Both the position numbers and the translations under genes were made by a program. A DNA stretch of 25,543 bases from a virus. Below the pieces are notes generated by a model. That model was not told the origin of the DNA, searched no databases, and saw nothing but the letters and a program-made list of their open reading frames with translations. Shown piece by piece: positions 464 to 13,417 of the stretch. The stretch spans positions 1-25,543 of the IMG/VR virus record IMGVR_UViG_3300010885_013007; one strand, given 5' to 3'. Position 1 is the first letter of the stretch; every line of letters begins with the position of its first letter.

Positions 464-726
464 AGTACTAATAAGTTTGGGCACATGGTGTGGCGATCAT
501 CTGATACATGTGGTAGTTTGAGTAGCGGCAGGCAATATCGGCCCCGTGGCTGGAAACAGTTAAATCGGGTACTCCCGAGGGCACAAGGAATTTTAGAGCT
601 GCGAAAGAGTTGCGCGAACCCATGAAAGAGCCTGTGAAGGCGAGCCTTTCCGCCAGGTAGCTCCTGGTAGGCATTGTGGTCCACTGTCGAGAAGCAGATT
701 TTAGTGTGCCCAAACTTATTAGTATT
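464..726 (+). ncRNA. Unidentified structured RNA or small element closed by a 22-bp inverted repeat
   Basis: The sequence at 466-485 is the exact reverse complement of 705-724, and two more pairs (one G-U) extend the stem to 464/726. Inside are further hairpins: 547-562 with a GAAA tetraloop (CTG-GAAA-CAG core), 565-578 (TCGGG-TACT-CCCGA), 653-667 (CCAGG-TAGCT-CCTGG) and a weaker AAGG-CGAG-CCTT near 637-646. It starts immediately after the CCA of tRNA-Val and ends 13 nt before tRNA-Thr, so it should be transcribed with both. I see no convincing reading frame and no match I can name: it lacks the landmarks of tmRNA, RNase P RNA, SRP RNA or a group I intron core. An alternative is a MITE-like DNA element, because the repeat core CTAATAAG...CTTATTAG is flanked by TA on both sides. 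Confidence 0.6.

Positions 727-11495: not shown

Positions 11496-13417
<1,922 letters not shown>

Follow-up and report, generated by a model that had tools for sequence, protein, structure and literature searches.

The window, that is, the whole 25.5-kb stretch of DNA from an IMG/VR virus record that was analysed, contains genes encoding dCMP deaminase, a 2OG-Fe(II) oxygenase and a phage-encoded GroEL chaperonin (11798-13417; PHROG 5725, E 1e-178). Two tRNA genes, tRNA-Val (tac) at 388-463 and tRNA-Thr (tgt) at 740-813, were found on the plus strand by both ARAGORN and the Rfam model RF00005. Between them, on the same strand, lies a structured non-coding RNA of 263 nt (464-726) whose 5' end would be set by the 3' end of tRNA-Val. 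A sigma-70 promoter, TTGACA-18-TACAAT, is predicted at 350-379 on the plus strand from a consensus match only (11 of 12 positions); it would drive tRNA-Val, the RNA and tRNA-Thr.

The RNA is closed by a stem of about 22-23 pairs (464-486/704-726). Its uninterrupted core is a perfect 20-bp repeat, 466-485/705-724, detected by BLAST within the window (E 4e-5). The original prediction, made from this one sequence, had a long stem with 20 perfect base pairs beginning directly after the CCA of tRNA-Val and ending 13 nt before tRNA-Thr, and had noted no convincing ORF; all of this is borne out. The 263 nt fold to -95.5 kcal/mol, as against -78.2 +/- 4.6 kcal/mol for dinucleotide shuffles (z -3.74, 0 of 200 shuffles). 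No plus-strand frame is open in 464-726: in all copies of the RNA, each forward frame contains stop codons. On the antisense strand the window has a frame of 87 codons, which is broken in most homologues. A conserved open frame, as a protein-coding gene would have, was thus not found.

Two short genes lie nearby. A basic, alanine-rich protein of 58 aa (MTDSKLSKNPFIAAAMAAKAAA...KKSAGRGR) is encoded at 830-1006, 3' of tRNA-Thr, and its homologues occupy the same place in many of the phages that carry the RNA (below, the bearers). The second, at 2454-2618, encodes a protein of 54 aa (MFESLEIRRAANGFILVV...); in the group to which the window belongs, most bearers have it conserved at a distance of a few kb from the RNA. 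Neither has a Pfam family.

Homologues and compensatory changes

Related contigs were gathered via the proteins neighbouring the RNA. Full-length copies with about 78% identity were found by BLAST and nhmmer in L079, L078 and L007, together with a weak copy in L094. Motif scans of IMG/VR produced 12 stretches, all of them genuine, and L325 came next. A scan with the P7-AUUUUA motif yielded nine far more divergent copies, to which L418 was later added. The total is 22 distinct IMG/VR sequences on 26 contigs, 263-295 nt in length, whose identity to the window copy is 53-85%.

A MAFFT alignment of the 13 sequences found first (A3), which was not fitted to a model, served for drawing the structure by hand. 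In this alignment 94% of the pair cells are canonical and 39 of the 74 pairs are changed on both sides; no shuffle equalled either value, and slid versions of the structure paired at 35-40%. The covariance model R1 recovered the later copies, which had no part in building it, and the reach of the final homologue search is that of R1; the window copy has a covariance model score of 279 bits. With 22 sequences, 95.0% of the cells pair and 59 of the 74 pairs change on both sides, none of 500 shuffles being as good, and the covariation score is 0.549 compared with 0.194 +/- 0.009 for shuffled and 0.06-0.08 for slid versions. As this larger alignment is model-fitted, the counts from the unfitted A3 are the cleaner test. 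Compensatory changes thus exceed both the shuffled and the slid controls; a covariation test, by R-scape, had been proposed with the original prediction.

No Rfam family matched the window copy of the RNA at curated or lax thresholds: among 4227 families compared with the window, only tRNAs passed the curated cut-off, other hits being at chance level (E at least 1), and the RNA had no Rfam match to tmRNA, RNase P, group I or II introns, 6S, SRP, riboswitches or ribozymes. Resemblances to the hammerhead, RNase P and Y RNA had been judged by eye and were dropped. No prior description of the 464-726 RNA was found in the open-licence PMC literature. On comparative sequence evidence, this is a real RNA family that has not been catalogued before.

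The terminal inverted repeats could also be those of a miniature transposon or another small mobile element, and a TA-flanked MITE was indeed the alternative given by the original prediction. However, there is exactly one convincing copy in every bearer record searched whole, the ends do not recur in the rest of the window, nor elsewhere in two further bearers, the order of tRNA-Ser, RNA and tRNA-Thr is kept, and the interior covaries throughout. The mobile-element reading is therefore rejected.

Conserved fold

The conserved fold consists of 12 helices present in all 22 homologues; the coordinates below are those of the window copy, plus strand. In the closing stem P1 (464-486/704-726), 20 of the 23 pairs change on both sides. 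It is followed by the hairpin P1a (487-498), in which all three pairs covary and the loop GGC (492-494) is invariant in 22 of 22 sequences. Helix P2 (499-503, AUCUG, with 695-699) has four of five pairs changed on both sides, including a compensatory change of CUG/CAG to UUA/UAA in L396 and L403; helices of this kind, apparently frozen in the first set, covary once the distant copies are added. P3 (506-513/681-687) is paired in 99% of cells, and the pair at position 508 varies between CG, UA, AU and GC. The neck formed by P2 and P3 encloses a conserved asymmetric internal loop with an unpaired strand of the GAAAA type (GARAA, 689-693), each position of which is at least 95% identical in the 22 sequences.

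Two arms extend beyond this neck. The P4 domain (525-602) includes P4 (525-529/598-602; five of five pairs covary), P5 (541-544/579-582), P6 (549-551/558-560), the nearly invariant P7 (565-569/574-578) and a single strand AUUUUANA (590-597) that is mostly invariant, with AUUUUA nearly so. The P8 domain (620-679), in which both sides are changed in 18 of the 19 pairs, includes P8 (620-625/674-679), P9 (630-633/638-641), P10 (644-647/669-672) and P11 (652-656/664-668). P9 is capped by a GNRA loop in most first-group copies. The window copy has two GNRA tetraloops, GUGA closing 630-641 and GAAA in the hairpin at about 548-561. Loops of GNRA type had been noticed earlier from the single sequence; interior hairpins that one would choose by eye with one sequence at hand are only partly right.

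The arms P4-P7 and P8-P11 surround near-constant single-stranded segments. The 20 invariant unpaired columns include the GGC of P1a, AC in the loop of P7, the greater part of AUUUUANA and two positions of the GAAAA strand, and the unpaired positions are as conserved as the paired ones. The thermodynamic minimum for the single sequence differs from the conserved fold; the comparative structure has -77.5 kcal/mol as drawn and -90.9 kcal/mol with the remainder free to fold around it. A search for covarying stacks beyond the 12 helices gave none that were convincing, and no pseudoknot was found.

An architecture of two arms around invariant unpaired bases, with GNRA loops and a position within tRNA precursors, is what might be expected of a new ribozyme whose unpaired core is the active site and which processes itself or acts on the tRNA precursors. 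This is the most interesting of the rival explanations. However, no catalytic family of Rfam was matched even at E 10, the RNA ends lie outside the core and have no cleavage-site signature, and the fold contains no pseudoknot that we could find. We consider a ribozyme unlikely.

Genomic context and ends of the RNA

Homologues in other phages, which the original prediction had proposed to look for, show the same placement in several cases: the order tRNA-Ser or tRNA-Val, RNA, tRNA-Thr (tgt) is found in the window, L159, L163, L156 and L325. A tRNA directly adjoins the majority of copies. Seven aligned copies begin 0-4 nt past tRNA-Ser or tRNA-Val; the start is at most one base from the tRNA 3' end in L159, L163, L007, L079, L325 and the window, and 4 nt after the tRNA in L157. 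Candidate sigma-70 promoters with 11 of 12 consensus positions, the -10 box ending 3-13 nt before P1, precede the RNA in L156, L165, L397, L401, L398, L403 and L418. They are consensus matches only, each with a shuffle p of about 0.001 or lower, and the seven copies represent about six strictly independent lineages. The distance of these promoters to the stem suggests that the stem marks the 5' end of the RNA, and thus tRNA 3' ends and promoters would be two routes by which the 5' end comes to lie where the stem begins. Release by tRNA processing, as originally suggested, fits the copies flanked by tRNAs, but several homologues have a promoter of their own instead.

The flanking tRNAs in several phages and the 23-bp stem are also consistent with a mere spacer or processing signal of tRNA transcripts, in which the stem would be an RNase III site similar to those around pre-rRNA and the RNA would have no mature function. 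The interior, however, is constrained beyond the needs of a processing stem, having invariant loops and covariation in all helices, and several copies lie next to no tRNA and are preceded by a promoter of their own. We therefore regard a spacer as very improbable.

Downstream of the RNA there are about eleven unrelated groups of ORFs, or tRNA-Thr, tRNA-Leu or tRNA-Pro. In seven copies the gene that immediately follows is of the DctP type (PF03480). A coding gene begins about 2-70 nt away in many copies, and in L397 and L401 the start codon lies within the 3' arm of P1, which could be taken as evidence of a cis-regulatory leader, such as a riboswitch or attenuator, of the next gene. But the downstream neighbour varies (DctP-like, several unrelated genes, a tRNA) and no gene is consistently in the regulated position, no terminator-like hairpin was found near the element in the window, and the stem closes the RNA upon itself. 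The lack of relationship among the downstream genes argues for an RNA acting in trans and against a leader, which seems to us quite improbable, slightly less so than a spacer. A cis effect on the genes that start within P1 in L397 and L401 is possible.

The DctP-type genes (L161:5585-6571, plus strand, with homologues in L007, L078, L079, L155, L157 and L160) have no obvious signal peptide. A solute-binding protein of the TctC type (PF03401) is encoded elsewhere in the bearer G039 (L499:10105-11058, minus strand). Receptors of this type are common in Burkholderiales, and this one hints at the host.

Bearers of the RNA and its proposed role

The bearers are large T4-like phages (up to 357 kb). 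The terminases of four of them are 81-83% identical to that of the phage of L165, and the closest relatives in culture, at 54% terminase identity, are the phages of the Pseudomonas PA5oct group (Arenbergviridae). Three bearers of near-genome size (354-357 kb) share about 190-240 proteins with median identity of 51-62%, whereas about 110-150 proteins, at 43-47%, are common to them and three relatives that lack the RNA; by shared proteins, the bearers form a clade. The simplest reading of these sequence comparisons is that the RNA was gained by the common ancestor of the lineage and then kept. More than 30 protein families are specific to the three bearers, a number confounded by shared ancestry, and the gene-content comparison yielded no protein family tied specifically to the RNA.

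Outside this lineage, BLASTN searches of cultured phages with six copies (window, L165, L094, L400, L398, L401), and of plasmids and E. coli with the window copy, gave matches at chance level only. The model detected no copy in PA5oct or MIJ3, unlike the bearers, nor in Phosso, Vibrio 2.275, GAP32, KVP40, RaK2, XacN1 and Atu_ph07. With two divergent copies, matches fell on one shared site in the mycobacteriophages Wanda and Baka, but this region is dense in coding sequence and receives no score from the model. When bacterial and archaeal genomes were scanned with a pattern, there were 11 hits, all attributable to chance. Long inverted repeats near tRNAs in three relatives without the RNA bear no resemblance to it.

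Two other structures were observed in related sequences. A different repeat, closed by 19 bp and located near tRNA-Met, occurs in G049, a relative without the RNA (L520:17212-17570); it holds boxes similar to TATCCACAG and one exact TTATCCACA, which by count is at chance level. A viral contig related to the window encodes a two-piece permuted tmRNA of the betaproteobacterial type (L008:10413-10821, plus strand; 121 bits to RF01850, 118 bits to RF04321) with the tag ANDEQFALAA according to ARAGORN.

That the element is an RNA gene whose product acts in trans is highly probable. The explanation as a whole, a stand-alone trans-acting non-coding RNA gene of one jumbo-phage lineage, we hold to be likely. 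The RNA would either be cotranscribed with the tRNAs or have a promoter of its own, of the host sigma-70 type, and its 5' end would come from tRNA 3' processing or from the transcription start. The 3' end may arise when RNase P cuts before the tRNA that follows (a cut at the 5' end of tRNA-Thr would free the 3' side of the RNA), together with trimming or with RNase III acting on the stem. The closing stem would then shield the ends, making the RNA stable. Its candidate contact surface for a partner consists of the GGC of P1a, the GAAAA internal loop, AC in the loop of P7 and the AUUUUANA strand. The partner, of host or phage origin, would most likely belong to translation or RNA metabolism and be engaged during takeover, and the product is probably a stable RNA, or an RNP, that serves the takeover of the host in the area of translation. 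The role in translation or RNA metabolism is the weakest step of this scheme and is proposed tentatively, because of the company the RNA keeps, private tRNA sets and GOLLD. Somewhat more speculative still is the possibility of a new functional RNA machine, a ribozyme or RNP core, that is encoded beside private tRNAs and sometimes GOLLD and alters host translation or RNA processing.

Comparison with known phage RNAs

The original prediction of a structured RNA distinct from GOLLD and ROOL is upheld by the compensatory changes in homologues and by the Rfam comparisons: the copies from the window, L325, L165 and L163 did not match GOLLD (RF02032) or ROOL (RF03087) even at E 10. Similarly to the new RNA, GOLLD is structured and is found in phage tRNA arrays on the strand of the tRNAs. 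It differs in sequence and structure, has a model of 416 positions, and is often longer than 800 nt, sometimes with a tRNA inside (PMC12286853). ROOL is likewise phage-encoded and located near tRNA islands, but is about 570-660 nt long and contains several pseudoknots. Both form RNA-only cages, with no known function (PMC12286853). A search of the bearers for ROOL, run without a positive control, found none.

GOLLD matches at or above the Rfam cut-off were found in five bearers (G134, G136, G138, G140, G144). In G134, G136, G138 and G140, the four for which coordinates were compared, GOLLD follows the RNA at a distance of 2.9-3.1 kb and has the same orientation; the match in G134 is at C1:281439-281904 (L468:1439-1904, minus strand) and includes a tRNA. 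The bearers G088 and G039 have no GOLLD, and conversely G074 and the Sinorhizobium phage Phosso (PV764938, 33533-34001) have GOLLD and not the new RNA. The two RNAs thus occur independently, as separate families in one niche.

Small stable RNAs are also produced from the tRNA region of the T4-type phage T4. The T4 RNAs rnaC and rnaD (species 1 and 2; PMC3014915, PMC12685909), which have no known role (PMC3014915), are shorter, 139 and 119 nt as compared with 263 nt, and the model R1 detected no homologue of the new RNA in the T4 genome. The RNAs of phage tRNA arrays, GOLLD, ROOL and rnaC/rnaD, are an old puzzle, to which the new RNA adds a separate family. Its small size, 263-295 nt, makes probing, mutagenesis and cryo-EM feasible; covariation settles the secondary structure, promoters or tRNAs define the ends, and the short list of invariant unpaired bases provides targets for mutation. 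As the RNA and GOLLD lie about 3 kb apart in some giant phages, both can be studied in one infection.
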